From contig CAIIXF020000009.1 of NCBI GenBank assembly GCA_903813345.2, forward strand, positions 9,234,030-9,298,029: a stretch of 64,000 bases of DNA, in the 5' to 3' direction. The notes below the pieces were generated by a model. It searched no databases, was not told the DNA's origin, and saw only the letters and a list, made by a program, of their open reading frames with translations. How positions within the stretch are numbered: the stretch's first letter is position 1; each line of letters opens with the position of its first letter. The translations under genes were made by a program, and so were the position numbers. Source of the DNA: Owenia fusiformis. Its lineage: Eukaryota; Annelida; Polychaeta; Sabellida; Oweniidae. Positions 26,601 through 59,639 of this stretch are shown piece by piece.

Positions 26601-29600
26601 CTCCGAAGAACTCAAGTTGATTGAGTCTCAACAGTGATAGAATCCATTTTCATTAGTAAAAATAGGAGTTCTTAAACAGGACATTGGACTTGCTTTTCAG
26701 AACCTTTTGTTGGCTCAAATACAGAAACCAAATTGATATTACAGGGTGACCAAAATGCAGACCTGATTAAACATTCCATCATTTCTTTTATTTTTCACAT
26801 CCAAAAGTGCTCACACTTTTGGAAAAATAGATGACTTTTAATGTCATGTTTCAATCAGTGTTTCGAGGTGTACTTGCAAATCCCAAATCCCCTCTATCAT
26901 CCTTCTTTTCAGGTGTTTTGTAGATTCCTGTGCTTTTTTTAATTTTTCAATATAACTACACATGTGAAAACTATGCTCTTGACTACATGCAACTTCAGTG
27001 ATTGCTTTGGATCTTATCAAATGGAATCTCCCAAAATCTTACTATATAACGATATAAACTTATACTTACAGATTTATATGTTTCACTTGTGGAATCTGGA
27101 TTTGTTGGTCTTGCATTCAATAATGTAAATTTCTTGGCAAGGCGTGAAGGACTAGAGAGTGTTATTGGTAATTCTACTATACCACAGTTAAGTACAATTT
27201 CATAATTGCCATAGTCTATATACTGCACTTTGCACTGATCAGCATTTATTTTTTCGACTAGTTGACACCTATACCACATGCTGTCTTCAGAGAATATGGT
27301 TGCATAAACCTGTAACATATAAATAGTATGATTTTTTTTATTTATTTACTCAATTTATTTGCATCAATACAATATAATACATAAGTTGCATTCAAAATTG
27401 TATGATTGATTGGATACAAAAACCAAATCTATACAAATACAATGTACTTATTATTTTGTTTCATCTGTCATTTGTTACAGACACCAAACATCAAATGCCG
27501 AACACTGACAGCCAAACGACATCCACAAAAAAGTTGGAGACAATAACACTTGTGGTAGTGACATAATAAAAATGCTCTTCCCACCAATGCATTTCACAGT
27601 CAAAATGCATTACTATTGACTGCTCTCTGACCAATCAAATATTTAGATTGATTGAGGTACCTTATTTTCTTCAGGGGCTGAGGTCAGTTTGGTAGACTGG
27701 GGGCAAACTTGAATCATACTCTCTGTGATCTTCATGAGTAAAGCTGCGGCATCTGGGGCCATGATCTGTGCCCAGAATGTGACTGGGTCCTCAACATGGG
27801 TGACCATAATCTGTTCCTATAAGAGAAGCACATTACATTGTGTTATTATGTTTGTTTGTGCAAGTATAATAAAAGTTTTTTGCTACTTGACTTTGGGGGC
27901 TCATGATGACAAGCCACAAATGAGTATCCAGTATGTAACTAGTTTTTACATGTCTTAAGATTTATTTGCCACAATCTGACTTAATCTTGTAGGCTCAATC
28001 AAATATACATGAACTATTCTGTACCTACCTTTGAAAGGAACTCTGGTTTGGGTGCAGCTGTACTCATGGTCATAGGTGACTTGGGGACTACAATAAATAA
28101 ATAATAATAAAAGAAGAATCATTTCTATAGGATACAATAATCCCAATGCTTTCAGGATGACATCTTTCTGTGATCTCCTCAGTATCATTGGTAGTCTCCA
28201 CACCCTGATCATACCAGGAGCTACTCAGAGAATCAAGGATTAGGAGCTTCTCGGTATGATTCATAAATAACAATGCATTGACATGCAAAATGCCACCACA
28301 GACACTGATTGCCCACAGGCATTGCCCACAGTTGAGTTGGAAACTATAACAATATGTCACCACTTCTGGTGGTGACTAAATTATTATTCAAAAGCATTAT
28401 TTTCATTTGTTGAATTACCTCACTTACACATTGTGATATGTCTAGGCCATGGCTTTTGCCCATGTGCATGGGAAACCAAGTGCTGCCCAAGCTGGTGACC
28501 TGAACTACTGTATTCAGTCCCAAGTTGTGACCTTACTTGTAATCTTACACATGCATATCTTGTCTACTGACAAGTCCTTCCCAAAAAAGTGACTGGATAT
28601 TCTTTTTAAAATCATAAGTGATTCTTTTCTAAAAACCTGATGTTAGCAACAAAGAAGTTAACCCCTACCAATAAAGTATAAAAATTGTTTAAATAGATGT
28701 AAATCAATAAATTATTTTTGTCTCCAACTAACCTGTCTAAGATTCTTATGTAACAAAATGAACTTACCCCTTCTCGAAAAAAAGAAAAAATCACATGAGA
28801 GAATGTATAGCAATATATCACGGTATTACCCTCGCTCTCAACTCACCTATATCAGGTTCTTGTTTAAAGTTGGACCTGTTCTGTCTAGGAGGTGAAGTAA
28901 TGTTATCTCTGTTTCGATCCTGACGATTATTGTGACCTCCAAACCCCTGTTGTCCCCTGGGACCACCACCCCCTCCACCACCACCGCCACCCGAAGGTCT
29001 GAAAATATCAATTACGTACATCATTAAATACCAGTTCACATGTAGCAAAAGGAGCTAGCTAATGTTAACTGGTACACCAGAGGTGTTTACTAGAATGCAA
29101 CTAGGGGGCACTGGTCAACTTTTTGTACAGGGGTGTGCCGCTGAGATTCAAAATATGTACTCACATCTAGGGGTTTTCTTTCAAAAATAGATTCACTTTA
29201 AGGTGATTTTTCAAAGACAAGACCCACTTCCGGCAATTTTTTTTCAAAAGCAATACCCAGTACTAGCACTCCCATATAGCCAATATATGGGAGTGCCCCC
29301 CTCCCCCGGGACAAATATGCCCTTTGGTGTCTCATGTGAGACACATGAGACACTTTATTCCATAATACTACTGTTTTCCCAGGGAAATATGAAGGAATAA
29401 AAATCGTATTGAATCGTATTACATGGAAAAATCGTATTGTCCCCGGGGAAAAAATCGTATTAGAGTGTATTACATAAAAAATCGTATTGTCCCCGGGAAA
29501 AAATCGTATTGGAGCATATTAACCTATTTTCGGTTTCCCGGTTATTTTTTCCCGTTTTTTGCATTATCCAAATGTAGCATTTTAGAGGGGTGTATTATGG

Positions 29601-32600
29601 AATAAATAGGTTATTTCTGGTCTGGATTGAATATGGGTTTTATTCCTCGGAAAATATGATATTGACCTTGGGTTATATAATATTGACAGTCGGTCGCTGC
29701 GCTCCCTCGGTCAATATCATATTACCCTTCGGTCAATATCATATTGTCCCTCGGAATAAAACCCATATTCAATCCCTCCCAGTAAATAACCTATATGTAT
29801 CTACTGTAATATAAATCATAAATATAGGTTATTTACTGGGAGGGATTGAATATGGGTTTTATTCCGAGGGACAATATAATATTGACCAAAGGGTAATATG
29901 ATATTGACTGAGGGAGCGCAGCGACCGAGTGTCAATATCATATTTCCCAAGGTCAATATCATATTTTCCGAGGAATAAAACCCATATTCAATCCCGACCA
30001 GAAATAACCTATTTATTCCATAATACATTCCACTAAAATGTTACATTTGGATAGTGCTTTTATCAATTGGCCAAGGTTAAAAATAACCGGGAAACCAGAA
30101 ATAGGTTAATACATTCCAATACGATTTTTTTCCCGGGGACAATACGATTTTTTCATGTAATACGCTCCAATACGATTTTTTCCCAGGGACAATAGGATTT
30201 TTTCATGTAATACGATTCAATACGATTTTTATTCCTTCATATTTCCCTGGGAAAACAGTAGTATTATGGAATAAATTAGTATATTTCATAAATACATGGT
30301 GGCCAAATATAAGTTAACAGAAAGACTGTAAGAATGAAGTGAACTAGTGAATGAAGTAGAAGAATAGAGCTGAGTTCTGCAATTGTCAATAGTTGAACAC
30401 ATACACTTATTTTTGTTTGTTTGTCATATTAAGTAACTTACGTTTTGTTTCTTTGAGTTCTAATTACTTTCAGCTGGTTTCCCTGAACTTTTTGACCGTT
30501 AAACTCTACACAGGCCTTTTCTGCATCTTCTTCACTGAAGAATCTCACATAGCTACAAATAAATAAAGGATATGAAAATAGTTTCAAAAATGATTGCAAT
30601 AAGCTAAAAAATTTGTTACAGACACTGGCAGCAAAAATCAGAAACAAAAATGCAGCCGCTACCCCCTTGCCAGAATTTTTTTCAAAATCATGTAGTTTTT
30701 CACCATTCTGAGCACTTTTCACATGATGTTTTGCCAAATACTGTCAAAAAGCTCCCCCCTTGGCAAAAGCCCCCTCCGGTAAAACCACTCCCCCCAGGTA
30801 AATCCTGGCTACTGGCCTGAAAAAGTCAACATATCCATGTAGGAGGAGATTTTTCCAAATCTGAGTGATGCCTGTGTCACAATCAATGACCAATTTTATA
30901 AATAGGAATCGTTGGCCATTGAGATTGATCTCAGAATGTATGCTGTTGTTATATGATTATTCTCTACAAGTTTGGATCATGTGACTGAATAGTATTACCG
31001 TAGTACAGAATTGATGGTGGCAACGGAGATGATATACAGTAGTATTATTACAGTATTATTAACATTTGAACATGAATATATTCACCCCTTCTATAAACTG
31101 AGAACAAAGTCAAAAATTCACCACTGTGTAATATGCATTAGTCATAGGGATGTCAGTGGACAAAATTATTTCGGGACGGGAACTATCCATTTCGGGATGG
31201 GACGGGACATAACCAATATCACAGTTCAAAAATCTTTGGTGAGTTTCATGTTTGAATCGTAATATAGACATCATAGCAGGTGATATTCTTTGGTCTATAT
31301 TTAAGGAGCAGGTGTTATATCTACAAGTACATAACGTAGGGCTAGACACAAACATTTTCTGTTCGAAACTCACCAATTTTTTTCAAATATTCATGATTGC
31401 CCACGACTACTACGACCCACCATAATGATGTCACACATTACTCACATTACCAGGTGCTATTTATACATACCAGATAATATTGCCTTGTTCACAGTTTATG
31501 GAAGGTGTGAATACTAGAGGTGTAACTCCCGTCAGTACAGCTCGTCATAGCTGCCTAAATATTGCCTCGAGTTGTCATCTAGAAACTCGCAATCTATTTC
31601 AACTCGCGAGCTAGCTATAACTCAAGTAAACTTGCGTGTTTTGCCTATCTTGCAAGCATGTAAAATGAATTTGGGTCCCAGAGATCGTGCAACATTACTT
31701 CATTAGGAAAATAAATATACCAACGATCGCCGTATTTAGCGCCCATCACCTAAAAAACACTCTCAAAGCTTCACAAAGTTCAACAAATATCGAGGAATGA
31801 CAAGTTACACCAAAAAATCAGAAAAAGATTGACTATTGAAGGAACTCAAGCGGGCGATAATAGAGTAGTCACTAAAGGTGAATAAAAAATGGTCCCCTTA
31901 TTCACGACTTTTACATAAAAAGATGATCTATCATTTAATTAAGATCATAAGTCATAACTTTAGATCGATATCCAGCAGTCTTTAGTAGAAATAATGAAGA
32001 TAATCCGGGAAAACCATTCATTAATTTGAGGGGCCCTTCTGGGTTTTCTAAAATATTGTTTGGTTAGCCTAGATTCTTGGTTCATTTTAGCGATCTCTAG
32101 TCCTTACCGTATGCGGCAACGTCTTTTACTCGAGTTTTGGAAATATTTGGCAAGTTGAACTCGAGTTGGATTTTTCTGGCAAGTTACACCTCTAGTGAAT
32201 ACAGTCATGTTCGAATTCTTAATTACATTATAAAATCTAATCATACCCAATACATATAATAAAAAACTATTCATACCCTATATAGCCAGGTCCCTTTCTA
32301 TTCTCCCCATAGGTAACTGACTGCACATTTCCACATTTAGAGAAGATCTTCTGGATCGCTTTCTGAAAACATAATAAGATGCATGATATCAAAACCTGCC
32401 ATTTATTAAAGATGCCGCCACCAAACTCCGAACACATCATGATAACAGAGAAATGTCACATATAAATTGGCATAGTATTCCCTTTGTTTTGACTATCTAC
32501 CACGCTATGTTTGAGAGCTTGATTTGATTGAAGATGATTTAGGGATGGTGTCTGATAGTACACAGTTGTGGAATAACAAAACCAGAACAACGGCAACGCC

Positions 32601-39264: not shown

Positions 39265-39316
39265 ATGGAGATCACATTTGAAGGCAAAAGAGCTCTGGTG
39301 ACAGGGGCCGGGAAAG
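39265..39316 (+). CDS. DCXR-like exon 1
   Basis: 52 nt from ATG to the phase-1 donor GTGGGC, coding for MEITFEGKRALVTGAGK. It breaks inside the glycine motif, with GIG continuing in exon 2. Confidence 0.88.
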
Positions 39317-42300
39317 GTGGGCGGAAGTCATGGTCACGTGGTTATTGTTTGTAAATAGAAGCACGTGGCCTGTTCCAGTTTGACAAGTTCTACTCTGGTT
39401 ATTTAATTTTTCAAATTAAATAGTTGCTTATTACTGCATAAGACAAAATGAATCCATAAACCTTCTCGAGATTCATGGGAACTAAAGCCCATTTCATTGT
39501 TTTATTTCGTCAGTAAAACCTAAAAAATAAGAAATCAAAAGATCATTGTGCAATATGGAAAATTATAACATACCTATGATGATGTAAAGTGTACACAAGA
39601 CAGCGGGCCAATATAAGTTGTGAAAAGCCTGCGCCTGCTAACTTTCTGATTGGTCAACGCGCTGACGTCATAACCAATCAATCGAATATAAAACTGCGCA
39701 AGCTATTTTTCTTTACTCATTTCAATCATTTTCAGACCATTTGTTTGTCAATTCTATAAAAAAAAAACGGTCAGTCTCTGACCAGTCTACATCATCATAT
39801 AGTCAAAACAGTAATGTTTGAGAGAACTTTGAATTTAAAAAATAAGCAATCAAATGACCAAATTGAAACAGTTTTAAACTTTATATAAAAATAGAAACAT
39901 TTATATTTATCCTAACTTTTGTAGAAGAAAAATGAAAATGTCCTTGTTCTGCCGATGATGAACCCATTCGATTGGGGATTCAACTCCATCAAAATAATTA
40001 ATTGAGGTAGGAATTTCCCGGGGGCTCACTGTATGTACGGTGAACCCCCCACAGGAGGAATTTTGAGTGTGAGAGGCATTGATTTTTCTTCTTTGTTATA
40101 ATTGTACAGGAAAAAAATTGGGAAGTTCTCAGAACTATCATTCTAGCACCTGATAACCTACTTGTACTTGGAAAAAAATTGGGAAGTTCTCAGAACTATC
40201 ATTCTAGCACCTGATAACCTACTTGTACCCCCTCTATAACAAAAGGAAAACAGATTCGTGGAAACCAGAGACTAGATCCATGCAAGTCGTGGAAGACTAT
40301 TTAACATAAGCGCTGGCCTGATGCCTAGGAGGCACTTACTTTGAATTAGATCTTGGCCAACTTATTTTATCAGTGTATAGAAAAGAACTTCGTAACTGTT
40401 TTTTATTTTACTGGTAGGTTTACAACCCTAAGCTCCCTGCTATTAAACCTTTTACTTTCAGGTATCGGAAGAGCGATTGCCATAGCTCTGGCAAAAGGGG
40501 GCGCTGTGGTGTACGCACTCAGTAGAACGCAGGCTGATTTGGACAGTATAAAAAAAGAGGTACTTAGTATTATTTCAAGTTTGTCATGGCAATCATACAA
40601 TTATTTTTTGTGTTTACTCTTTATGTTCTGCCCAATACTCATTATTACAGAATTATCATTTTGCAAGCCTCATTTTCTTAAATGCTTGGAAATTAGATCA
40701 CAACTCAAACATATATATAAACCTACATTTGGGCCACCCTGTAATGGTACCATATGTCAGCAATGATAATATGTAATGTAACAATAACAGTGCTTACATG
40801 ATGCCTCATTGACATCTCAACATGACTCAATTACTTACGATGTTGATACAATTTAGACTTACAGTAGTACCAAAATGGTGAGTCTTGTGACAAGCATTTA
40901 ACATTTTTTCTCATTTAACATTTTTGTATTTATAGAATAAACAAGCTGTTTCTGGTCAGAATTGAATATACCCTTCATCCTTGAACACTATAATAATGAC
41001 GTTGGGAAATAGCATATTGACATTTATTTCACTCCCTATTTCAAAATCATTACTATTTAGTGAATTTATGAGAATAAAATGCATACAGTTCATGTCAGAA
41101 GATTACATTCAAAAATCAAAAATACAAACCTTCAATGGAGATAATCTGCAGCGATTTCATTGTGAATTGTAGAGCTCAAATATCAAGACCATCTTTGTTG
41201 ATGTGGGGGACTGGGCTAAATGCAGAGAGGCCGTGGAAAAATGTGGTCCTGTTGAGCTTCTCGTGAATAATGCAGGCATTGGAAGTAATCAATCTTTTTT
41301 GGAGATTACTGAAGGTGAATGGGATAGGTAAATTACATTTTTACAAATGTGTGTTTTATGTTCCAGAATGCTAGCATTAAAACTGTATTAATTGATGTAG
41401 GAGACTGGACTGAATGCAGAGATGCAGTTGAAAAATGTGGCCCTATTGAACTTCTTGTTAACAATGCCGGCATTATAGTAGCTCAATCTTTTTTTGAGCT
41501 CACGGAAGAATCATGGGATCGGTAAATTACTTTTTTCAGGGAAACTATAACTTATTGGCTAGATTGATGATGTCATTGGTTGTAGGTAGCAAACTGCCCT
41601 TTCAAAAATGGTATTAACATTTTGCTAATTATCCCAACAAACAAAGTTCGGTAGGGATATAGTGAAGCCCTCCGTCCGTCCGTCAGTCCGTCAGTCAGTC
41701 AGTCCGTCAGTCAGTCAGTCCGTCCGTCTGTCCGCCCGGAAGATAACTCAAATATTAGTTTACGGATTTTCTTCATATTTGGTGGAAAGATGTATATTGA
41801 TGAATAGTTTTACGCAAAAAAAATTTTTTCAAGATGGCCGCCGCTTTAAAAATGACGGGACTTTTTCGCAAAAATCATAAATTTTTCATTCTAAACCAAA
41901 TTAATTAATATTATTGTTTGAAATTTTGGTAGTATATTCGCTACATCTATCTATTTCACATATATTCCGTGTTTTTCATCCTGACCCCCAGGAGCCGTGT
42001 ATGGGGGGTCAGGAAAACAGAAATTTTCGCTAATTTTTAGATCTTTCTGAAGTATAGCTTTATTATACTCAAATGAAAGGCAATTAAGAGTAGATTGCAA
42101 ATATTGTATCTTTTTTCTGATTCGAGCTACGTAAAATTCAAAATGGCCGTCTAATGTACGATTTCGCAATAATTTTTCAATCCCTTCAAAGTATGGCTAT
42201 ATAATACTCAAATTGAAGGAATTTTGGAGTAGATCACAATTATGGTAATATTTTTCAGATTTGTACCTCAGAAAATTCAAAATGGATTTTTTCAAGATGG

Positions 42301-44361
42301 CCGCCGCTTTAAAAATGGCGGGACTTTTTCGCAAAAATCATAAATTTTCATTCTAAACCAAAGTAATTAATATTAATGTTTGAAATTTTGGTAGTATATT
42401 CGCAACATCTATCTATTCCACATTTATTCAGTGTTTTTCATCCTGACCCCCAGGGGCCGTGTATGGGGGGTCAGGAAAACAGAAATTTCCCTAATTTTTA
42501 GATCTTTCTGAAGTAAAGCTTTATTATACTCAAATCAAAGGCAATTAAGAGTAGATTGCAAATATTGTATCTTTTTTCTGATTCGAGCCTCGTAAAATTC
42601 AAAATGGCCGTCTAATGTACGATTTCGCAATAATTTTTCGATCCCTTCAACGTATGGCTATATGATACTCAAATTGAAGGAATTTTGGAGTAGATCACAA
42701 TTATGGTATTATTTTTCAGATTTGTACCTCAGAAAATTCAAAATGGCTGCTTTGCAGGAATTCGCAATTCTAAAATCTAAATTTTTCAATTTTAACCAAA
42801 GTAATGAGTATAATTGATTGGAATTCGGTAATTGATATTTTGTTCGTTGGGATTTGCTACTCCGCGGAGTTGCCATCATCTAGTTTTATAAAAGTACAAC
42901 CTATGACATCATCAATCTAGCCAATATATGGTGGTTTCTCTGATGGATCAAAAGATGGCACGATTTATCGGAAACGTCTAGCATATTTCTTTCTCTGATT
43001 CATTATTGAAATGTCTAAAAAGTAGAGAATTCAGATTTCAGAGAAAATGTTGTCAAGTCCAGCTTGTAGTTGGCAATTACTAATAATAGTCAATACACTC
43101 TGGTCAATCAAAACTGATTTTTATTATTATGTAACGACCAGGAGTGATAATATTGTTACAGTCTTCAACATTTTTGTGGTTGGTGTTTGGCAGTTGGTGT
43201 TCGTTGATGACATTTTGCATGTTTATGCCTTGTTTAGCTTGAGGTTCAAGTACTATTGTTTATCCTATGACAAGTGAGGTTTCAGGTACATAACAGCGGG
43301 ATATAAAATCGATATCTTGGAGGAGCAGGACATATATATATCTCCCGCTGTATATCTCCCGCACCAATATTCCCGGGAAAACATTCTCGCTCGGTGTAGA
43401 AACAGTCAAAATTCGTTAGAATATCTCGCTACAGCGAAACTACCAAAATGGAAGCAGATGGCGGTAGATATTTTCTTGACCAAAATATGTTCTTTTAAAT
43501 TATTGACTTTCATTCAATATACATGTTTCATATACGACAAATAAAATCAACATTAGTTTAGAAAGTTAAGATCTTTTCAATTTATCAGTTGAGGGAATAA
43601 TCAATGTCTTATAGATAAAAGCCCTCCGGGCCCTCGGTAAGATATCAATATTTCCCTCGGGATATACCCCATATCCAAAACTTCCCATAACATAACCCTC
43701 ATATATTCATCCCTGCTCTAACATTCACTTGTTATCTTTTCAGTGTATTGAATATCAACCTGAAAGCATCAGTGAACATATCTCAGGTGAGAATTATTGT
43801 GAAAAACATTAAAAGTTCATTTTTTATGAAAATATTTGAATTTGCGCCTTTTCAATAGTTTGATTTCATAGACAACTTTAAGGTAGAAATTATGGATTTG
43901 CAAGGAAAATGAGCTAAAGGGCTATATAATTATATCACCATCACTAGTGGCGACATACCTTTTCTGTGGATGGTGTTTGGCTGTTGGTGTCTTTAACAAG
44001 TGTTTATGGGGTGACATTTTCCATTAACTACTAGCAACCACGTGTCTGTCTATCCATCCATCAACACCTTTTGAAATTTAAATGCCATTCAAGTGCCATT
44101 TGTCTGAATTTAAACTTATTTCAATATTACAGTTTACAGTTTTTATCAGGCATGTTGGTAAATGTGTAATATTAACATTCTTTATTCTGTATATAGGTAG
44201 TTGCCAAGGGAATGGTTGCTAGGAAACAAGGTGGTGCCATTGTAAATATTTCAAGCCAAGCATCTATGATTGCGTTACCAAAGCACACAAGCTATGCGGC
44301 AAGCAAGGCAGGATTGGATCAAGTCACACGAATGATGGCATTAGAACTGGGACCACATAAT
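39265..44361 (+). CDS. DCXR-like: L-xylulose/dicarbonyl reductase (DCXR-like SDR), 5' exons; 3' end not found
   Basis: Exons 39265-39316, 40462-40559, then either 41173-41327 (3a) or 41367-41521 (3b), 43744-43786 and 44197-44361 give 171 codons. Human DCXR has 244, so about 73 are missing. Visible: the Rossmann motif TGAGKGIG; SRTQADLDS, a DCXR signature near the NADP(H) 2'-phosphate site; NNAG; Asn107, Ser136, Tyr149 and Lys153 in exactly the human DCXR numbering. Family role: NADPH-dependent reduction of L-xylulose and alpha-dicarbonyls in the glucuronate/uronate cycle. The last coding exon ends ALELGPHN at GTAAGT; the following exon, expected to begin near IRVN, was not seen in 44362-64000 by eye. 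Confidence 0.9.
39649..39693 (+). promoter_or_regulatory. Compact promoter-like cluster ATTGG, TGACGTCA, CCAAT, TATAAAA
   Basis: Within 45 bases of DCXR intron 1: ATTGG 39649-39653, a perfect CRE palindrome TGACGTCA 39663-39670, CCAAT 39674-39678 and TATAAAA 39687-39693, in the order and spacing of a strong core promoter. No ORF follows. It may be an alternative promoter or a relic. Confidence 0.45.
40095..40229. repeat. Direct duplication, about 68-bp spacing
   Basis: GGAAAAAAATTGGGAAGTTC to CTACTTGTAC is present twice in DCXR intron 1. Confidence 0.85.
40462..40559 (+). CDS. DCXR-like exon 2
   Basis: 98 nt. It completes TGAGKGIGRAI and codes for SRTQADLDSIKKE. It ends in phase 0 at GTACTT. 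Confidence 0.92.
40933..41030. repeat. Diverged arm fragment of the 29.4-30.3 kb palindrome family
   Basis: TTTCTGGTCAGAATTGAATA resembles TTTCTGGTCTGGATTGAATA of that element, followed by TTGGGAAATAGCATATTGAC. Confidence 0.45.
41173..41327 (+). CDS. DCXR-like exon 3a, one of two tandem alternative exons
   Basis: 155 nt, phase 0 in and phase 2 out. It codes for residues 51-101 including DVGDWAKC, ELLVNNAGIGSNQSFLE and EGEWD. With exon 4 it encodes Ser at residue 102. Confidence 0.88.
41367..41521 (+). CDS. DCXR-like exon 3b, the other tandem alternative exon
   Basis: 155 nt, same phases as 3a; 34 of 51 residues are identical by hand count. It codes for DVGDWTEC, ELLVNNAGIIVAQSFFE and EESWD, and gives Arg at residue 102. 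Only 39 nt separate it from 3a. Joining 3a to 3b would shift frame and stop after about eight codons. Confidence 0.88.
41555..42926. mobile_element. TIR element interrupted by a pearl-like element
   Basis: TTGGCTAGATTGATGATGTC on the left and its inverse GACATCATCAATCTAGCCAA on the right. Nearly all of the interior is the pearl-like insertion at 41629-42884. Confidence 0.6.
41629..42884 (-). mobile_element. Pearl-like element E, reverse orientation
   Basis: TTATCCCAACAAACAAAGTT, a CCGT/CAGT microsatellite (41671-41735), two long core units of about 480 bp (GTGTTTTTCATCCTGACCCC twice), ending GTTGGGATTTGCTACTCCGC then GGAGTTGCC. The ends match element B. Confidence 0.72.
43130..43240. mobile_element. 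GTCACCACC MITE, copy 6
   Basis: TTTTTGTGGTTGGTGTTTGG to GATGACATTTTGCATG, reverse orientation. Confidence 0.5.
43744..43786 (+). CDS. DCXR-like exon 4
   Basis: 43 nt between TTTTCAG and GTGAGA, coding for VLNINLKASVNISQ with the catalytic Asn107. Confidence 0.88.
43938..44030. mobile_element. GTCACCACC MITE, copy 7
   Basis: CTGTGGATGGTGTTTGGCTG to GGGGTGACATTTTCC, in DCXR intron 4. Confidence 0.5.
44197..44361 (+). CDS. DCXR-like exon 5: catalytic Ser-Tyr-Lys
   Basis: 165 nt, phase 0-0. It codes for GAIVNISSQAS (Ser136) and TSYAASKAGLD (Tyr149, Lys153), then RMMALELGPHN. Confidence 0.93.
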
Positions 44362-44379
44362 GTAAGTACTCCATCATTT

Positions 44380-44520
44380 CATGAAGTTGTTCACTGCTCA
44401 AAAAACTTTAGCTACAACTCTATTTTTCCTGAAAATAATGCATTAGAACAAGGACGTCTTTGATTAGAAATACAAACTACGCCCAGGTATGCTGGATAGA
44501 GCAGTGAACAACTTCAACAT
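44380..44520. repeat. Short inverted repeat after DCXR exon 5
   Basis: GAAGTTGTTCACTGCTC and its inverse GAGCAGTGAACAACTTC lie about 110 bp apart; a small hairpin or MITE. Confidence 0.5.
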
Positions 44521-44699
44521 TCACATTGCAGCAGTTATCCAGAACCAGGGAGCCTTGATTGAGCCCATCATCCATAAATCAGTAGAAAATACCCATGGGC
44601 ATGTCTGTTGATGTCATGTATGTAACTCCTGTGAGATTTAAGACTGAGTGACCTTCATGGTTCCAATGAAATGTTTGACCTTACTCTAAAAATGTGAGA

Positions 44700-44835
44700 A
44701 TATAACCCCATTTATGTGGTGTAGCTTGTTGCACAGGTTCACTCTTTAAGACCACCCTGGTATGTCAATTTTACCATCGAACCCAGGTCGAGGACCTTCC
44801 ACTCTCGAGTCAGACGCTCTTCTCCTGAGCCAGGT
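44700..44835 (-). mobile_element. tRNA-derived SINE, likely
   Basis: On the minus strand TGGCTCAGGAGAAGAGCGTC resembles a pol III A box and GGGTTCGATGG a B box about 40 bases on. Its head abuts the LINE at 44829. Confidence 0.5.
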
Positions 44836-46290
44836 CAAAGCACTCATGTGAAACACAACTTGTCAATACAATAGAGAATATAGCTCGGGCCCTCGACAAC
44901 AATAAACAAACAGACATGTTGGTATTAGACTTTTCCAAAGCGTTTGACACGGTGGCTCACGAACGCCTCTTGCTCAAACTCGACTATTATGGAATTCGCA
45001 ATAATAACTTGAACTGGTTCAGATCCTGGCTTGTGGGAAGATCACAACAGGTAGTGCTCGATGGTGAATCAAGTTCAAAAACTCCAGTAAAATCAGGAGT
45101 TCCTCAAGGAACAGTTCTTGGACCACTCTGTTTCCTTGTTTATATCAATGATATGGGCAATAACCTATCATCCTCAGCCAGTCTTAAGCTTTTTGCCGAC
45201 GACAGCCTTTTATTCATGACAGTCGAAAGCAAGCAAGATGCATTAACACTACAGGAGAATCTTGATAAACTGGTCTCCTGGGCATCAACATGGCAAATGA
45301 AATTCCATCCATCAAAATGCTATGTGCTAAATATTCACAAAGGTAAATCCCCTATCATGCACAATTACACCATGCTAGGGGAAAACCTTAAGTCGGTAAC
45401 ACACATCCCATACCTAGGAATTGACATCACAAATAACTTACGCTGGACTACACATATTCAAACTATTGTATCCAAAGCCAATAAGGTGCTTGGATTTCTC
45501 AGGCGCAACCTCCATCAATGCCCTGAAAAAGTGAAGGCTCAGGCGTATAAGTCACTAGTCCGGCCTAATTTAGAGTATGCCAGCTCGGCATGGGATCCGT
45601 ACCGACAAAAAGATATTGATATGTTGGAACAGGTACAGAGAAGAGCAGCCAGGTTTGTAACCAAATGTCACTCAAGGGAACCAGGCTGCGTCACCAAAGC
45701 TCTTCAAGACCTACAGTGGGAGCCACTGAAGGAGCGTCGAGAGGCTGCTAGAGTTTTCCTTTTCTACAAAGGAAAGCAGAATCTAGCAGCCATCGACGTG
45801 CCTCCATACTTCCGCCAACAGATCAATACCAACACTAGGTTGTATCATCCTTCTAAGTTCATACAACCATCAACTAGAACGGATGCATACAAATTTAGCT
45901 ATTTCCCTAGGACAATAGCTAAATGGAACACTCTACCTGGTGACATCTTAGACTGTGACAGTCTAAGTAGTTTTAAATCATCATACTATGCCTATGTCAA
46001 TAACTGCAATTAAATAGGTGTGTTTTTTATATAGATCTATGTTTTAATGTAAAGGGTCCCCAGTGCACAGCAACAAGCCTGCACTACTGGTAAAGAGGGG
46101 TGATGTCAACGCGGTTAGCCTGACAGTCTCCCCAGGTAAAATGAGTTGTAAACCATAGATCTATTTTTAAATGTTAAGGTTTTAAATTATATTCTATTCA
46201 AATTCTATCACTGTTAAATTATATATCTGCTTTATATGGGCTTATTAGCCTTTTGCGGATTATTGACATAGACATGACATAGACATAGCC
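44829..46290 (+). mobile_element. 5'-truncated CR1/Jockey-like LINE
   Basis: The frame is open from 44829 (after TGA 44826-44828) to TAA 46013, 394 codons. RT motifs: SCETQLVNTI, LVLDFSKAFDTVAHERLL, SGVPQGTVLGPLCFLVYIND, LKLFADDSLLF. The C-terminal part is complete (WNTLPGDILDCDSLSSFKS). Tail GACATAGACAT repeats at 46262-46290. The endonuclease is lost. Confidence 0.88.
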
Positions 46291-46344
46291 ATAAGGGCTA
46301 GCCACTACAGCTGAGACTGTAGTAGCGACTTGCTATCGAAGGTC

Positions 46345-46440
46345 ATTACAGCTGTTTTAATTTGGTGGATCCACCAAATTGTTAAAGTCTGCCAAATAAA
46401 GTCGCCGCCAAATTCCCTGGTAAAACTCCCAATTTTATAA
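46345..46440. repeat. Dispersed repeat shared with 51253-51440
   Basis: GCTGTTTTAATTTGGTGGAT then CCACCAAAT and AAGTCTGCCAAATAAAGT occur at both places. Confidence 0.75.
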
Positions 46441-46560
46441 AAAAAATTGAATGTATAGATGTCCTTCTAGTAGTTCAGATGTACACATTGATTTATTAAT
46501 GGTGCAATTTATTTATTTACAATTCTGTGATAGTATTTACAAACACGATGTTAAAAAGAA

Positions 46561-47512
46561 TACATTTGGTTAAAGGAAAACTGCTTGTAGTAGCTCATCC
46601 AAGATCACTTTGAATTGTAGCTATTTGGTTAAAGGGCCACTGCTTGTACTAGTTCATCCAAGCTCACTTTGAAATGTAGCTATTTCAAGGGACACTGTTT
46701 GTTGTAGTTCAGCCATAAATCACCCAAGCTCACTTTGAATTGTAACTATTTGATTAAAGGGACAGTGCTTATAGTAACTCATCCAAGATCACTTTGAATT
46801 GTAGCTATTTGGTTAAAGGGACACTGCTTGTAGTAGCTCATCCAAGATCACTTTGAATTGTAGCTATTTGATTAAAGGAACACTGTTTGTCGTAGTTCAT
46901 CCAAGATCACTTTGAAATGTAGCTATTTGATTAAAGGGACACTGTTTGTAGTAGCTCATCTAGGATCACTTCAAATTGTAGCTGTTTGGTTAAAGGGACA
47001 CTGCTTGTAGTAGCTCATCTAGGATCACTTCGAATTGTAACCATTTGGTTAAAGGGACACTGCTTATAGTAGCTCATCCAAGATCACTTTGAATTGTAAC
47101 TATTTGGTTAAGGGGCACTTCTTGTAGTAGCTCATCTAAGATCACTTTGAAATGTAGCTATTTCAAGGGACACTGTTTGTTGTAGTTCATCCAAGATCAC
47201 TTTGAATTGTAGCTATTTGATTAAAGGGACACTGTTTGTTGTAGTTCATCCAAGATCACTTTGAATTGTAGCTATTTGATTAAAGGGACACTGTTTGTCA
47301 TAGTTCATCCAAGCTCACTTTGAATTGTAGCTATTTGATTAAAGGGACACTGTTTGTTGTAGTTCATCCAAGATCACTTTGAATTGTAGCTCTTTGACTA
47401 AAGGGACACTGTTTGTCATAGTTCATCCAAGCTCACTTTGAAATGTAGCTATTTGATTAAAGGGAAATTGCTTATAGTAGCTCTTCCAAGATCACTTTGA
47501 ATTGTAGCCTAT
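46561..47512. repeat. 59-bp minisatellite, about 16 copies
   Basis: Unit GATTAAAGGGACACTGTTTG, GTAGTTCATCCAAGATCACT, TTGAATTGTAGCTATTT. Variants alternate CTTGTAGTAGCTC with TTTGTTGTAGTTC; some copies are shorter. Confidence 0.92.
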
Positions 47513-47951
47513 TTTAGATAGAATAAACTCCAGTCCAGAGTCTAACCACTAACAGACAATGCCCTTTTCATTATTGAGTTGAATTGTTTGATATGTCTTG
47601 TTTGTATGTATTAATCATTGAACATTGAACTCTGAATTCTTGTGGTTCTCTGTTCAGCTGACAGCACATTATATCTTTACCAAAATGGTTCAATTACCCT
47701 CATGCGGTCCAGCATGTATCTTGAGGTATGAGGTTTTCATCACTTTTCCAATGTGCTATGTTTTCATCATTTTGTGTCGATAGGTGTGCTTCTGTTTGTG
47801 GGTGGGCAGGCATCACAAAAATTGTGTTCATTAATTGGATTCGGAGGCTGAGAATTCTCATTTGTACTTTGATAGTCCATGTATATTTGTAATCCATTTG
47901 TAGTTTAATTATACATAATTTTTAAGAATCTCAAATACAATTACATGTAGT

Positions 47952-48244
47952 TTAAAAATCTGCCTGAAGTCTACTTGCAGATTTGTGTCTCCAATACAAA
48001 TCACCAATTCTCCATGCAGAACTTGCAAGTTGGGGGTTGAGCAGAAATCCTGTCCTTGCTTCATGAGGAACATATCCCCGGGAAGTTAAATATTTAGCGA
48101 GGGTTTCCATGGCAACCATAGGGCACGGGGAATCTTGTTCATTTCTCGCTGTAAACATTTGCTTCCATTCCATAAATATATAAGGCACGTATATTTTGTC
48201 GAGGAATTTCTTAGCTTCGGCCATTGCCTTGCATTCATATCCCT
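47952..48244 (-). CDS. FkbM methyltransferase exon 2
   Basis: 293 nt after a TTACTTTCAG acceptor. It codes for EGYECKAMAEAKKFLDKI, continues through a C-terminal region typical of animal FkbM proteins (YVPYIFMEWKQMF) and stops at TAA 47952-47954. Confidence 0.87.
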
Positions 48245-51200
48245 CTGAAAGTAAAATCAACAGAATAATTCATATGGAAAAAGAGTTATTATGTCACCAC
48301 CATTATTGGTAACATATTCTTGCGGTCTTCAACTTTTTTTGTGGACAGTGTTTATTGTTTGGAGTTTGTGGTCGGCATTCAGTGTCTGTAACAAATGGCA
48401 GGTGGTGACATTTTGCATCTTAGTTCTTTGTAAATATTTTCTACTTTACATAACTCATTATGGAACCAAACATATTCATTTTTGATCGGAAACATTTTTT
48501 GATGTGTTGTCCCTTCATTTGTTATTGAGACATTTTATTACTACAGAACTTATTCATCAAGTTTATCAAATGTTCATCAAATGTTCAACTAGGTGCAAAT
48601 GTTTTTTGATGTGTTGTCCCTTCATTTGTTATTGAGACATTTTATTACTACAGATATGTATAGCTAGGATCTAAGAATAGGTTAGTTATAAATAAGTGTG
48701 GTAGGTGATGATATATTTTTCTGTAAAATTTAGGTGAGGCAAATGCCTCTTTGGTAGTAAAGCTTCTCTAAAGCACAGAACATACACTAATATGTCTGCT
48801 TAACGAAAGAGTAAGAGTAGGGCCATTCTTGTTCCAGAACTTATTTTTAAGTTCATCAAATGTTCATCAAATGTTCACCAAATGTTCACCTAGGTGCAAA
48901 TGGATTTCCAACTGATATTTTGACCTGCCCCCAGCTGGTAAAATTGTTTTTCCCATAAACCATGATGTATTATGTTTAACTACAAGTATCCTTGGAAATG
49001 ACCCATGAAGTTGTTGATTTACTATATTTTGGCATATTTTTGTGATAGGTCTACTCAATTTCATGGCTGGGGTGCTTTAAGGAGATCATTAATGTTATCG
49101 AGAAATGGTCTGTTTATACAATCTCTTTAACGATGTTATAACTCATCCATTTATCTGCTCATGCTTATCTCACAAATTTTGACAAAGTGTCTTATTTTCT
49201 GGTATCTTTATTTCTTCGTACTATACTTTAGATTTTATAGTGTTTAAAGGTCCTATTTCTTGAGAAAGCACAAACATTTATCAGGTCTGTGGATTAAATA
49301 CCATAATTTTATTTTATTCAAAATATTTGGACAAGTAGACTGGTAAGGCCAGGTTCTTTGCTCCTGTCAGGCTTTAAGATGATACTTTCTAAAAAATAAT
49401 CATTTGTCTGGCAGCATTCATAATCCATTGAAAGTTCAACTATCACATACATGTTTTTAGATAAAAACTTGTCTTGACTTGTCTTGCATAAGACTTCTTT
49501 AAATGAAATTGATGCTGGATCTAGAAATATGTCTGTGAAAGACAAACTTTTAATAAAAGCCTAATAAACAGTTGCACTCCCAAATTTTCTCTTTTCCAAA
49601 TATTTTTAACACATTTTTGTCGTTTTCTCTTTCGCACATACTATTTAGACATATACTTTAAATATGAGATGGATTGATACCGCATTGAGATGGAACAAGT
49701 GCATTATTTGCTTCTCTATGCATCCCAAAACATCTGCCCATTGTCTAGAAAATGCTATTTTCCCGACCTTGAGTTATTCCAATTACCGAGGCTAAACTAA
49801 TGAGCAAAGCTGGAATTGGCAATCATCAAAGCTATTAAGATTTCTAGGAATTTCTGTAAGGTGTGAAACAATTTGCCAGCAGCCATGTTATTGTGCTTCA
49901 CAGTTCACATGGAGTTAAAAATGTCAGGTTAACTTTATCACTGCTACCCACCTAGTTACACAGACGAATCGTCAGTGTATCATGGCGGAACTACTTCCGG
50001 GACTAGGTTTCGGTAAGATTTTTTTATTTCCGGTTTACACCTACTTAAAAGTCACATTCTGGATAATAATTTGGCTCGAAGTTAAGGAAGATAGTCTAGT
50101 TTGAGAATGTGTCGATGGTTTTAGGTTTTATATGTTAACGAAGACACAATTCACGTATTTAGTCCCTCGCTTTTGTTACACTGACGTACGACCAATATCA
50201 GTGTAATATTGGCAATATTAATGCCGATCGTCAGTGTAACAAAAGCGAGGGACTAAATATGTGAAATGCGTCTTCGTTAACATACCAAACCTAAAACCAT
50301 TGACACATTCTCAAACTAGACTATCTCCCATAACTTCGAGCCAAATTATAATCCACATTGTGACTTATAAGTAGATGTAAATTGAGAAATAAAAATATCT
50401 TACCAAATTCAAATCCCGGAAGTAGTTCAGCCATAATACACTGACGATACCTCTGTGTAACTAGGTGGGTAGCTGTGTTTATATCATAGGATTAATTTTT
50501 ACACAATTTGGATTTTTGTCATTATATATAGAATTGATTTTTGACTTGATTTAGATTCGATTTGTAGATGCAGATCTCTGATCATAGCCCTGATCAAATC
50601 AAATTTGATCAAATCAATGCTAATTAATTGTCGTCACTGATTATTTCGCAAAATATCACTTATCACTCTATTTTTTGAGCCCATAGATTTAGTTTCACCT
50701 TTGAATTTGACTATATCTGGCCTTCTTTATAATACCACCCATACAATTTACCTAAAAGTTAGAACATTGTTTGCATATTTTAAGAGTATTATAGAGTATA
50801 GCCCTGATTTTCTAAATTTCTTACCTTTTGGCTTAAACCTTTGTTTTTTGACATGTCTGCTTATTTGATATTTGAATTCATAGAAAACCAAGCCAGTTTA
50901 TCCTCAAATGAAATCATTGATATTGGCCGAAGGCACGGTTTATTGAGACAGCTCTCCAATATTTCACTTGTAAACATCTAAAAATGTCAGAGTGTCTACG
51001 AGATTTAATGAACCATGGTACTTGTTGAGTGAGAAAAAATATGAGATTATCTCGAACAAATATATTTCGCCATAATTAGGCTGTAACTTCATCTGATTAG
51101 ATAGCTTCCTGTTTATGTCTTAATGCCATGGCAACATAACAAGTTAGCAGACACAGTGTTACCAGAAATGATACTTTTGGTTTATTCAACACATGATATC

Positions 51201-52831
51201 TCTGTTTTAGATGAATACATTTTTGTAATCTGATTCTACAACTGTACTTAATTTGATGGCTGTTTTAATTTGGTGGATCCACCAAATGTTAAAGTCTGCC
51301 AAATAAAGTTACCACCAAATTCCCTGGTAATTTTGGTACCATATAAAATAGTACCATAAGTACATTGTAATATTGCAAGTCTGCCAAATTAACTTGCTGC
51401 CAAATGTTCAAAACAGCAAATCTGCCAAAATAAGTAGCGTCAAATTAAGTAGAAGTACAGTGTTGCAAAGATGGAATATACTTGTATTATACTTTACTTG
51501 TACGATATATAGTATAGTATTGAAAGCAGTAAAAAGCCTTAAATTGAGAGTCATCTATTGTTTAAGTCAAACCTCACACAGAAATCTACCTTAAAGTGTG
51601 CGCCCAAGTTTAAAACTGCGCAGGCGCACCGCTCTCGCTAAACTATATAAAGAGATTACCGGGTACACGATTCAGAGGTAAGCCAGGAAGGCGAACTATC
51701 TTCGTCTCGTGATGATTTCCCATATAATCGTAACCAGGGAAGTTTCACCATTGAAATTAAAAATTACTATTAGATATACTTTGTAGATGTTATTTATGAA
51801 GCTATTTAGTGTTTGCATCAATCAAATGGCTCATTTTGAACATATAAAAAGTATTTGTGTTTTGTTTCCCAGGGAATTGTATTGTATGTATGTAGTACAC
51901 ACATAAATAGTGTACATTATACAGTACTTGAATAGCCTGGTTTATATAATATTGAAGGGCATGCTGATTACATGCACACGAGTACATGAATGAAGGCCTA
52001 ATATTGATATACGTAGCTTGCATACCTAAATAAAAAGTAAACTCTTCTAATCCCCTAATGTAAACACGGCGGTATACGTAGCCCGATTTATCGGGGACTT
52101 TAAACTACCTTTAACAACTAGCAAAACTCACCTATATCAATTTTTATAATGGCTTGAGTAAAATCTGCAATCTGTAATAGATCATCCATGATGATTGTCT
52201 CAACTTGTGTTTTATCTCTGGCATGGATGCCCATCTGTATTGGCTTGACTTGTATTCCGCCTTGATTGTCTAAATTGTCCGTCAGAGAAACATTTTCATG
52301 TGTATTAGACAGAGCATTATGTAGAAGTTCGATTCTATCAAGTGATCCACTTAACTGGGCCCCTTTATGTAATCGCTGGATGTTGTCCCATTGAGGCTCA
52401 ATTGCAATAACGCTTCGGTGCATGTGAACCGCAAGTAACGAGTAATACCCAATATTCGCTCCAATGTCAATCAAGGTAGATTCTGGGTATTTTGAAAGTG
52501 CTCTCTGGAATACTTCTGTGATGTAAGGTTCCCATATTCCACCTGATAAAAGTGCTCCTGATATGTACTTATCCTTTGATGCTTCATAGACGCATATCGG
52601 GAATGGCGGCTTAGTCTTTGTATGTACACAATCAAACTTGGTCATGTTCTGTATTGGTTGTTGCAAGTTCAACAATCGTAAATGTTTCGGCTTTTTGAGG
52701 TCAAGAATGTTGGAAAGTTTTCTTTGTGGAAGACGGCGATGTTTCCGTGGCAACAACAATATGTCGTCATCATTATTTGGAGGTTGCTGTGGCGATAGGA
52801 GGATCTCACAAAGTATGCAAACCATTGTCAT
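47952..52831 (-). CDS. FkbM-family SAM-dependent methyltransferase, 2 exons
   Basis: Exon 1 52831-52132 (700 nt) and exon 2 48244-47952 (293 nt with stop) give 330 aa. The phase-1 junction restores KIDIEGYEC, the conserved D-x-E-G-x-E block of FkbM methyltransferases. SAM motif I is LIDIGANIGYY (120-130) and motif II VIAIEPQ. The first 60 residues are Pro/Lys/Arg-rich, with a short hydrophobic start (MVCILCEILL) that could be a weak anchor. A TTTGATTTCAG acceptor lies just before ATG 52831, so a 5' non-coding exon is likely upstream. The family methylates sugars or small molecules; the substrate here is unknown. The 3.9-kb intron contains a foldback element. Confidence 0.87.
48290..48425. mobile_element. 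GTCACCACC MITE, copy 8
   Basis: The most complete copy: TATGTCACCACCATTATTGG to GGCAGGTGGTGACATTTTGC, showing the inverted ATGTCACCACC ends. In the methyltransferase intron. Confidence 0.65.
48426..49938. other. Methyltransferase intron, unique-looking sequence
   Basis: Holds a short internal repeat (ATGTGTTGTCCCTTCATTTG at 48500 and 48611) and no recognised gene. Confidence 0.5.
49939..50477. mobile_element. Foldback MITE in the methyltransferase intron
   Basis: A 539-bp palindrome centred near 50208. Ends CACTGCTACCCACCTAG and CTAGGTGGGTAGCTGTG, flanked by TTTAT on both sides. CCCTCGCTTTTGTTACACTG near the centre recurs in the 22059-22566 element. Confidence 0.82.
51615..51680 (+). promoter_or_regulatory. 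Possible promoter: NRF1-like site, TATA box, short exon and donor
   Basis: TGCGCAGGCGCA lies near 51616, TATATAAAG near 51645 and CAGAG/GTAAGCC near 51677. It is antisense to the methyltransferase, inside its intron. No coding exon could be linked to it. Confidence 0.3.
52132..52831 (-). CDS. FkbM methyltransferase exon 1
   Basis: 700 nt. It starts at ATG 52831 (MTMVCILCE); a second ATG is two codons on. It ends KIDI plus one base at GTGAGT. Confidence 0.86.
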
Positions 52832-52934
52832 GGTAATACCTGAAATCAAATAATTTTGTACATTTGTGAATCTAAAATGAAATACTGTACCGTAATATGC
52901 AAGCTTTGAAAGAAGATTAAGATGGAGACATGTT

Positions 52935-53080
52935 GGGGTATGCAGGCCATAGCCAGGATTTACCTGGGGGGAGCAGTTTTACCAAAGGGGGGGGGGGTTC
53001 CCGGGTTTTAGCCAAGGGGAAGCTTTTTGACAGTTTTGGCAAAAAATCATCCCTCCGCTGCCCTCCCTGGCTACGGGTTT
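52935..53080. mobile_element. MITE of the GTAGCCAGG family
   Basis: ATAGCCAGGATTTACC to CTGGCTACGGGTTTG with G runs. Confidence 0.6.
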
Positions 53081-53109
53081 GGTATGAGAATCAATTATAT
53101 GAATGGGGT

Positions 53110-53725
53110 CACTGATAGGAGAGGGTTTACTAATAGAGGGGAGGTTACTAATAAAGAGGATAGGGGTGACTAATAGAGAGGGTGTTACTAGTAAAGAATA
53201 GATGTTACTGATAGAGAGGGTGTTGCAAGTAAAGAATAGGTGTTACTGATAGAGAGGGTGTTACTAGTAAAGAATATGTGTTACTGATAGAGAGGGTGTT
53301 ATTAGTAAAGAATAGGTGTTACTGATAGAGAGGGTGTTACTAGTAAAGAATATGTGTTACTGATAGAGAGGGTGTTACTAGTAAATAATAGGTGTTACTG
53401 ATAGAGAGGGTGTTACTAGTAAAGAATAGGTGTTACTGATAGAGAGGGTGTTACTTGTAAAGAATAGGTGTTACTGATAGAGAGGGTGTTACTAGTAAAT
53501 AATAGGTGTTACTGATAGAGAGGGTGTTACTAGTAAATAATAGGTGTTACTGATAGAGAGGGTGTTACTTGTAAAGAATATGTGTTTCTGATAGAGAGGA
53601 TGTTACTAGTAAAGAATAGGCGTTACTGATAGAGAGGGTGTTACTAGTAAAGAATAGGTGTTACTAATAAAGAGAAGGGGTTACTAATAGAGGGGAGGTT
53701 AGTAATAGAGAGGGGGTCACTGATA
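53110..53725. repeat. 38-bp dimeric minisatellite, about 16 copies
   Basis: Each unit is two related halves: GTTACTGATAGAGAGGGT and GTTACTAGTAAAGAATAGGT. Confidence 0.93.
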
Positions 53726-55690
53726 GAGAGGGGGTTACTAAAAGAGAAAATATGCGTGACTGATAGAAGAGAGGGAATAACTTTTGAAAGGCCCATCGAT
53801 GTAGGGAAAGGAAAAATGAAAAGAGAAAGGGGTCACTGATAGAGATAAATGTTGAGGTAATAAGTTCAAAATCATTGTGACAATACAATCAGGTAACAGA
53901 AGCATTTATATAAAATGAGTAATTTGATATGAACCATGATTGATTTTTTAGATTCTCTTAAATCATCTATTAGACTTAGGGCTTGTTACGTATATAATCT
54001 ATTTTACATGATGTTACAAGACAAATGCATATTATATCAAAGGACTGCCTTACTAAGAGTGATTGATCTTACAAGAAATGTCCCCTAGGTTTGAATGGTA
54101 TATTAAGTTAAAAACACCTCTTATTAGTCATTTGATTTCAGATCCTATTTGTGATGTTCTGATCAACTAATAAAAAGATGTGGGCATCCCTCATATTAAA
54201 ACCCATATACAAAAATTCCATGGGGCTCACATTTGACCATTTTGGCCCAAGATCACTTGAAAGGTGCTCAGAATAATTTTGAAAAGAATTTGACCAGGGG
54301 GGTTGCTCCCACACCCTTACCCCCTGACCCCCCTCACTACATGTATTACAAATCGAGTAGTTAATGTAGTAGTTGTAGATCTTATCAGATCATTCACAGA
54401 GCTTGAAGCACAAGTGCAAAAGTGCAGATTTGTAACATAACTTGAACTGTCAATTGCAATAACTTCATACACATCAATAAACTTGGCAATGAACACATTC
54501 CCTCCAGAGCTAATTTATCAAAAATAATTTTTACGGTGTAACTTTATCATTAAAGATAATAATGTATATTCTCTATGGAATCAAACCTTGGGTATCTACA
54601 TATTCTAGACTTCTTACGTTATTCCTTGCGAATTCCACTCTTTTCCAATTTGAAGATATTGGTTCACAGTGACATTTCCCCTAATAGAAGATATCCTATT
54701 ACAACTGTTCCCAAAGGCCATGATGGATTAGATGGATTTTATATGGGATGCAAACCTTGCCTTTGAGGCTAATTATATACTTCTACATAAGATAGCCGTC
54801 TGCTCATGCTTATTTCGCTCAATTTCTCTCTAAAATTTGAAAGAACTGTCTTATTTCTTGACATTTTTATACCATTTAGAGTGTTAGTTACATACTCAAT
54901 TACTTTGATTTTTTGACAAGTCCTCTCTTTTTTACAGTTTCCAAAAAGCATGATCACCATTGTATTTTGCAAAAACTTTTTTTGTCTCTTGAGATACCAA
55001 GCAATTATCAACAATCAAGGGAAGCCGGCAACTGTCATTCTGATACTCAGAGCATCTATATTTGCAGAGAGAAGGAAACTGATAGGAGGATGTGATATCT
55101 CACAATTGCCAACTGTATGCCAAAATAGATACGCCATCAGATATTTATGGAGGCAATTCCAACTTTATCAGTGATTCTTTAATTCCGTAGAAATTGCATT
55201 TTGTGGAAAAGAGAACAGTGTAGCCAGGGTCCACCTGACAAATTGAAAACTGGTTTTGCACTCTCATATAGTTCCTCCTTATACAGCTTGCTCGAGGAAG
55301 AGTCGAGACATTAAAGTAACCGTGAGTATCATGATTGATTGTGCAGGTCATTTGAGAGGGTATCGCTTAATTGTCGTCTGATTGAATAAAATGTGTGATG
55401 TGTGAGAGAAATAATTGCATCCACTCATGCCCTTAGTGCCACTTCTAGGACGACTCAATCAATCACGAACGATCAATTTTCTCCTGACATTGAAATTGTG
55501 CAAGAAAATAGGTGATTAACCTGACATTCAATGCTGTTATTTGCAATATTTGGCTCATATGTGCACCCTTTTCAATAATAATATTTGCTCTTGTAAAAGA
55601 GTGCTTCATCTACACTCTTTGGATAACAGATAACTCTTTGATCTCGCCTTATCAGAATGTTCATGATGCCTTACGGATTGCATGCACTAA
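53726..55690. other. Intergenic, no gene recognised
   Basis: Contains a diverged GTAGCCAGG-type MITE (54190-54350) and short ORFs without motifs. Confidence 0.45.
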
Positions 55691-55757
55691 AAGGAGGAAA
55701 TATCCCAGAATCCATGGATGATATGGTTCATTTATGAATCCTGGGTTATTTCCTCCT
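55691..55757. mobile_element. Small MITE, AGGAGGAAATA ends, copy 1
   Basis: AGGAGGAAATATCCCAGAAT and the inverse AATCCTGGGTTATTTCCTCC. Confidence 0.65.
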
Positions 55758-56079
55758 CTTGCTCCCTCATCCAAGGGGAACAGTAATTTCAAAGTTGGCA
55801 GTTTAAATGCAATTGGATAATAAAAAGAACACATCATGTAAAAAGCAAATTGTGCTATATAATTCTAAATTCATTCTCTCTCCTAGGAATAAGATATTTT
55901 ATAGTGTCATAAAAAGTTCAATTGAAAAGATTAACCATTGATTCAGTGAAGCATGACTTTACGGTAGTATAGCCATGACTTCAGTATAATAAAAATGGAA
56001 AATTTATTTTAATGTGATTGGAGAACTAGTCTCATGCAGAGAAACTGAAATGCCTCAGTTTCTGAGAACCATTTATTTT

Positions 56080-57950: not shown

Positions 57951-57958
57951 TGATAGTA

Positions 57959-59635: not shown

Positions 59636-59639
59636 AAAT

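Follow-up and report, generated by a model that had tools for sequence, protein, structure and literature searches.

Organisation of the DCXR-type locus

The 64,000-nucleotide (nt) window analysed here (C9:9234030-9298029, from the annelid Owenia fusiformis) contains exons 1 to 5 of a gene for a short-chain dehydrogenase/reductase (SDR) resembling human L-xylulose reductase (DCXR). Between exons 2 and 4 lie two neighbouring homologous exons of equal length and phase, designated 3A and 3B, which encode the same segment of the protein (residues 51-101 and the first two bases of codon 102). In what is the sole DCXR-type gene detected in the genome, these two exons very probably arose by tandem duplication and persist as a functional mutually exclusive pair. 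This reading, proposed in a first-pass annotation of the DNA, is supported by the anatomy of the gene, the selection acting on the pair, the single-copy status of the locus and the matches to human DCXR, and from it we infer exclusivity at the RNA level.

Each of the two exons is 155 nt long, begins in phase 0 and ends with the first two bases of codon 102, AG in 3A and CG in 3B, which the T of exon 4 completes to Ser102 or Arg102, respectively. The copies are identical at 112 of 155 nt and at 34 of 51 amino acids (aa), with their differences falling at 12 first, 7 second and 24 third codon positions. A tblastn search within the window with 3A as query recovered 3B at an E value of 3.6e-21, and the reciprocal search with 3B recovered 3A at 1.4e-21, so the resemblance is not due to chance. 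To the repeat finder the pair appeared as a direct repeat of 161 nt with 76% identity and 194-nt spacing, including the first 15 nt past the donors; in the flanks, 14 of 20 nt match after the donors and 8 of 20 before the acceptors. Both copies have open frames and coding constraint, the constraint on each being deduced from a single 51-codon pair, and their splice borders are intact (GT-AG ends, with the acceptors TAG in 3A and CAG in 3B and the donor GTAAAT in both). Measurement therefore upheld what the first-pass annotation had stated of the pair: its coordinates are right to the base, and the shared length, segment and phase, the 34 of 51 identical residues, the 39-nt spacing, the intact splice sites and the Ser or Arg at residue 102 were all confirmed (Table 1).

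Table 1. Exons of the DCXR-type gene and the intron separating the alternative exons. Positions without a prefix are those of the window.
Feature	Position	Strand	Content
Exon 1	39265..39316	+	From the start codon through residue 17, and one further base (MEITFEGKRALVTGAGK G)
Exon 2	40462..40559	+	Residues 18-50; IGRAI and SRT (R39, T40) inside
Alternative exon 3A	41173..41327	+	Residues 51-101 plus AG; VNNAGIGSNQSFLEI; Ser102
Intron between 3A and 3B	41328..41366	+	39 nt, GT-AG
Alternative exon 3B	41367..41521	+	Residues 51-101 plus CG; VNNAGIIVAQSFFEL; Arg102 as in human and mouse
Exon 4	43744..43786	+	Finishes codon 102; catalytic Asn107
Exon 5	44197..44361	+	Ser136, Tyr149, Lys153; last exon within the window
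Exon 6	C9:9313267-9313381		Beyond the window, ~35 kb downstream of exon 5
Exon 7	C9:9313815-9313918		Beyond the window; ends in a TAG stop

No convincing match to a C-terminal exon was found inside the window (the best having E 1.5). Extending the search to the full assembly (498 Mb in 525 contigs) located exons 6 and 7, which were the top two of 71 matches and have GT-AG borders. Both spliced forms encode 243 aa in an intact frame through the stop, and the gene is complete. A truncated gene or pseudogene, considered on account of the C-terminus absent from the window, was ruled out by the two downstream exons and the intact frame. Intron 1 is 1145 nt long, exon 2 is separated by 613 nt from 3A and by 807 nt from 3B, and exon 4 follows 3A at 2416 nt and 3B at 2222 nt; the introns between exons 4 and 5 and between exons 6 and 7 span 410 and 433 nt, respectively, and intron 5 extends over 34,876 nt.

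Further DCXR-type copies were sought genome-wide, using residues 1-171 of isoform B as query, all 133 of the 133 first-look candidates being scored. This gave 107 matches, of which five at the DCXR locus are 57-95% identical to the query and the other 102 reach only 28-49%, and therefore the present locus is the only DCXR-type gene seen in this assembly. Most of the 102 weaker matches cover nearly the full query in one open frame, as expected of intronless SDR genes. A scan with PF00106 (19 of 346 candidates scored) likewise gave matches that all lie in one open frame, and is uninformative as to whether other SDR genes contain exon pairs.

Identity of the two isoforms and the swapped segment

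The best structure match of both isoforms is human L-xylulose reductase (1pr9), with 250.9 bits (E 1e-73) for isoform A and 255.2 bits (E 4.7e-75) for isoform B, followed in each case by mouse carbonyl reductase (1cyd; 218.7 bits for A and 227.2 bits for B). The alignment with DCXR spans residues 1-240 and is ungapped through residue 170, making DCXR the closest solved relative over the full length. The isoforms also match the Pfam adh_short family with 179.9 (A) and 178.7 (B) bits, and none of the best 25 NCBIfam models per isoform reached its cut-off, that library being built for prokaryotes. The catalytic residues Asn107, Ser136, Tyr149 and Lys153 stand at the same numbers as in DCXR and are encoded by the constant exons 4 and 5. 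According to work quoted in PMC3395893, in rat xylulose reductase the catalytic triad consists of Ser136, Tyr149 and Lys153, and changes at Asn107 of the human enzyme affect the binding of substrate and NADPH. The DCXR-like identity assigned in the first-pass annotation is borne out by these matches.

The segment swapped between the isoforms holds the GDW motif, the NNAG motif and the loop after it, and 18 of its 52 residues differ. As had been noticed at the outset, the copies diverge directly after NNAGI: residues 87-89 are G-S-N in 3A and I-V-A in 3B, compared with A-L-L in the human and V-I-M in the mouse enzyme. Residue 102, Ser in 3A, is Arg in 3B and in both mammalian proteins. The 87-89 loop presumably borders the nicotinamide and the substrate, as in SDR structures generally.

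Selection on the two copies

A comparison of dN and dS (nonsynonymous and synonymous divergence) between the copies, suggested with the first-pass annotation as a check, was carried out with a codon model using F3x4 frequencies on the 51 codons of the 3A-3B pair. It gave a rough pairwise omega (dN/dS) of 0.19, with dN 0.23 and dS 1.19, at a log-likelihood (lnL) of -318.37. Fixing omega at 1 lowered lnL to -326.85 (2 delta lnL 16.96), indicating purifying selection on the pair. Models in which one copy evolves neutrally were then constructed by setting one branch to omega 1 and the other to a background of 0.02, 0.05, 0.1 or 0.2, the two branches being given equal time; their lnL values were -322.05, -322.18, -322.41 and -322.90, respectively. 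With both copies held at these same four values, lnL was -324.38, -321.87, -319.40 and -318.38. The best one-copy-neutral model tested thus sits 3.7 log units under the free fit, and a model with one copy decaying neutrally describes the data less well.

Neutral drift was also simulated from 3B in 1000 runs per distance, with base frequencies and kappa of our own choosing. At a distance of 1.19, 4.3% of the runs stayed stop-free, and at 0.6, half the dS, 9% did so; at neither distance did any of the 1000 runs also keep at least 34 identical residues. At 0.3, 18.6% were stop-free and 1.1% also kept at least 34 identical residues.

Comparison with the mammalian proteins gave the same count for either copy. 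In the swapped segment, 3A and 3B each match human DCXR at 22 of 52 residues and, equally at 22, the mouse carbonyl reductase 1cyd, and at the 18 differing sites the human and mouse residues are matched by 3A at three (59, 77 and 93) and by 3B at three (57, 98 and 102). Since the two copies are equally near human DCXR, neither appears to have run ahead; neither is obviously the ancestral one, and both look constrained by purifying selection.

Splice paths and the 39-nt intron

Joining the exons in silico established which paths are productive. Both 2-3A-4 and 2-3B-4 stay in frame. The path 2-3A-3B-4 adds eight new codons from 102 on and then meets a stop, confirming from the joined frames the early stop after about eight codons that had been predicted for double inclusion. 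Skipping both exons (2-4) shifts the frame to a stop, so that double inclusion and double skipping are alike non-productive, and retention of the 39-nt intron brings a stop at codon 103.

Exclusivity can arise through several known mechanisms, one of them being a steric block in which the intron between the exons is too short for splicing. The 39-nt intron contains two YTNAY motifs. Counted from the 5' splice site, the putative branch A of the first is the base at position 16, leaving 23 nt to the acceptor, and that of the second is at position 31, with only 8 nt to the acceptor. As an intron control, 92 matches to the myosin head (65 of 210 candidates scored) provided 36 neighbouring exon pairs that could be scored, and the shortest of the 36 introns inferred from these myosin genes is 126 nt, a rough figure given that the matches read through stops and very short introns may hide within one match.

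Inverted-repeat arms of 49 nt at 41536-41584 and 42895-42943, the first starting 14 nt past the end of 3B, were considered as a regulatory or docking hairpin behind this exon. This was rejected: the first arm and the bases following it belong to a repeated palindromic element, a transposon footprint. With 40 of 310 candidates scored, the element occurs in at least 40 places including its own; most of the stretch is matched in 38 of these and 57 nt in the other two, and 32 further matches in the same search correspond to the opposite arm. At 41536-42943 it is split by a second repeat of ~1.26 kb (about 41626-42886), whose copies of at least 1 kb are 89-98% identical (40 of 3122 candidates scored). 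Besides the 49-nt arm, the only inverted pair of at least 12 nt in 40560-41640 measures 13 nt at 85%, no search having been made for weaker competing RNA structures.

Alternative explanations

Several observations weigh against two working, strictly exclusive exons. Some of them would be expected if only one exon were used and the other were a decaying duplicate whose frame is not yet lost. The acceptor tracts of 3A and 3B have pyrimidine contents of 0.56 and 0.62, the lowest two of the gene's seven, and the donor of 3B, the weaker of the pair, is without the A at -2, so one exon could be rarely used; moreover, the palindromic repeat begins just behind 3B. In the codon models, forcing the partner to omega 0.02 makes the one-copy-neutral model better than the matching two-copy model, the ranking against decay is driven mainly by backgrounds of 0.1-0.2, and the omega of 0.19 comes from 51 codons with dS near saturation. 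Decay of one exon is nevertheless unlikely in our judgement. The low omega of the pair, the 3.7-unit deficit of the best one-copy-neutral model tested, the rarity or absence of simulated drift that keeps such protein identity stop-free, and the equal nearness of both copies to human DCXR all argue against it. An assembly artefact, for instance two alleles placed in tandem, would suit the tandem order and close spacing, yet is scarcely credible: the copies diverge by 28% in DNA with the differences concentrated in third codon positions, and the similarity extends just ~15 nt into the following introns and falls to 8 of 20 nt before the acceptors. It was rejected on the 72% DNA identity together with the third-position bias.

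A different possibility is that both exons are used and the 39-nt intron is sometimes spliced, the resulting early-stop message serving to tune the amount of enzyme (regulated unproductive splicing). The stop that follows double inclusion, the GT-AG ends and the YTNAY motif with its A at position 16 would all fit. Introns of ~40 nt can, moreover, sometimes be spliced: a screen of 22 human ultra-short introns of 37-65 nt provided splicing evidence for 15, and splicing of introns of 43, 49 and 56 nt was confirmed experimentally (PMC4463651). Length alone would thus give no absolute exclusion, and for this reason a steric block by the 39-nt intron is likely rather than proven. The earlier description of 39 nt as very short for splicing stands in that it is far under the 126-nt minimum inferred here, but splicing is not absolutely precluded. 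Regulated unproductive splicing is still improbable, more so than the decay of one copy, because the branch A would be just 16 nt into the intron, the intron has less than one third of the length of the shortest of the 36 inferred introns, and with G at 6 of 39 bases it is not G-rich, in contrast to the 43- and 49-nt human introns.

Proposed model

Under the favoured explanation, in which the duplicated exon is retained for mutually exclusive use, each mature mRNA would run from exon 2 through either 3A or 3B into exon 4 and would encode one of two short-chain reductases of 243 aa. Both forms would share the start of the protein, which binds NADP(H), as well as the catalytic residues Asn107, Ser136, Tyr149 and Lys153, and would differ at the 18 swapped residues, including 87-89 right after NNAGI and residue 102. 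Splicing probably includes one exon at a time, and exclusivity would probably be enforced twice, by an intron below the normal size for spliceosome assembly and by the early stop met if mis-splicing occurs. It is plausible, as the first-pass annotation had raised for the substrate, that the two forms differ in the handling of substrate or cofactor. More tentatively, the pair may act as a splice-controlled substrate switch, in which 3B would supply a vertebrate-like hydrophobic loop with Arg102 and 3A a polar GSN loop accepting a different, perhaps more polar, substrate; we regard this as possible, with the odds somewhat against it.

Neighbouring features and a myosin exon array

The part of intron 5 inside the window (44362-64000) carries a reverse-transcriptase open reading frame (ORF) at 44829-46013 (RVT_1) and a tandem array at 46564-47514 with 16.1 copies of a 59-nt unit at 85% matches. 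Two minus-strand ORFs (47952-48269 and 52118-52978) resemble an FkbM-type methyltransferase by eye and are without a Pfam match. Upstream of the gene, the minus strand holds a Tudor domain ORF (26995-27345) and half of an RRM (30438-30743), and an ATG-led minus-strand frame starts at 38720, 0.5 kb from the DCXR start. These three pieces possibly belong to one RRM-Tudor gene with a two-way promoter common to DCXR, their unity as one gene being a guess.

In the myosin search used as the intron control, 12 matches to the same stretch of the myosin head (profile ~18-84) were observed on one strand of C9:37986009-37994334, spaced 164-1788 nt apart and directly upstream of matches to the rest of the myosin head, among the best 65 of 210 candidates. 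This array is likely a large set of alternative exons at one site, with partial gene copies as the alternative. Tandem myosin exon arrays of this type have precedents in annelid Mhc genes (PMC3912159). Also elsewhere in the genome, 38 Forkhead matches fall on nine of the twelve large contigs (C1, 3, 4, 5, 6, 8, 9, 10 and 11), among them tandem groups of four on C8 and of three on C10. For O. fusiformis, whose developmental expression dynamics have been described, 35 Fox genes are reported on nine of 12 chromosomes, with foxQ2 genes in tandem on two (PMC9539403); the chromosome numbers used there differ from the present contig numbers.

Comparison with known systems

Mutually exclusive exons are widespread, and they occur in enzymes such as ketohexokinase, whose fold is unrelated to the SDR fold. 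In human DCXR (PDB 1pr9, 1wnt and 3d3w), which has the same catalytic residues and is the best match of both isoforms, the isoform change described arises from an alternative promoter (PMC6143958). No segment-swapping exon pair in DCXR was found in the open-licence literature on DCXR, SDR, annelid exclusive exons or xylulose reductase splicing, in agreement with the first-pass statement that none was known. A survey of human duplicated exons reports that swapped regions tend to avoid small-ligand sites but can adjoin them, as in ketohexokinase (PMC9741552); in its main text, the terms dehydrogenase, reductase and DCXR are absent. The tandem exon pair is real and well formed, lies in a complete single-copy gene and is very probably spliced one exon at a time; it is a new case, in DCXR, of a kind of system already known.

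Exclusive exons in metabolic enzymes can be highly informative, and three such enzymes offer direct comparisons: the exons have been linked to the affinity for sugar in ketohexokinase, to the response to calcium in OGDH and to the choice of substrate in COQ2. Ketohexokinase, with exons 3A and 3C (PMC6464065), is likewise an enzyme of sugar metabolism in which two alternative exons give isoforms of different sugar affinity, and its tissue-specific exon use is documented. The OGDH exons 4a and 4b (PMC7969005) likewise reflect an ancient exon duplication in a metabolic enzyme, with exclusivity tied to a short intervening intron; compared with OGDH, the branch site of the DCXR pair is a motif match only. 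In COQ2 of helminths, annelids and molluscs, exons 6a and 6e (PMC7434440) are again homologous alternative exons of a metabolic enzyme, annelids included, and the swap alters residues adjoining the active site and is linked to a substrate switch. COQ2 differs in being a prenyltransferase and not an SDR, and in that its exclusive splicing is supported by RNA-seq and its effect by exon removal in C. elegans. As a positive control, a UbiA search of the present genome for the COQ2 exon pair gave five matches and no clear duplicate exon.

With 52 residues swapped beside the cofactor, the DCXR pair would bring the very large SDR family into the set of enzymes diversified in this way. It would offer a simple test of how one gene can give two enzymes, as well as natural loop variants for the study of substrate choice in SDRs, and its 39-nt intron would provide a clean annelid case for the steric model of exclusive splicing. 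Should the proposed substrate switch prove true, it would be the SDR-superfamily counterpart of the COQ2 exon switch.
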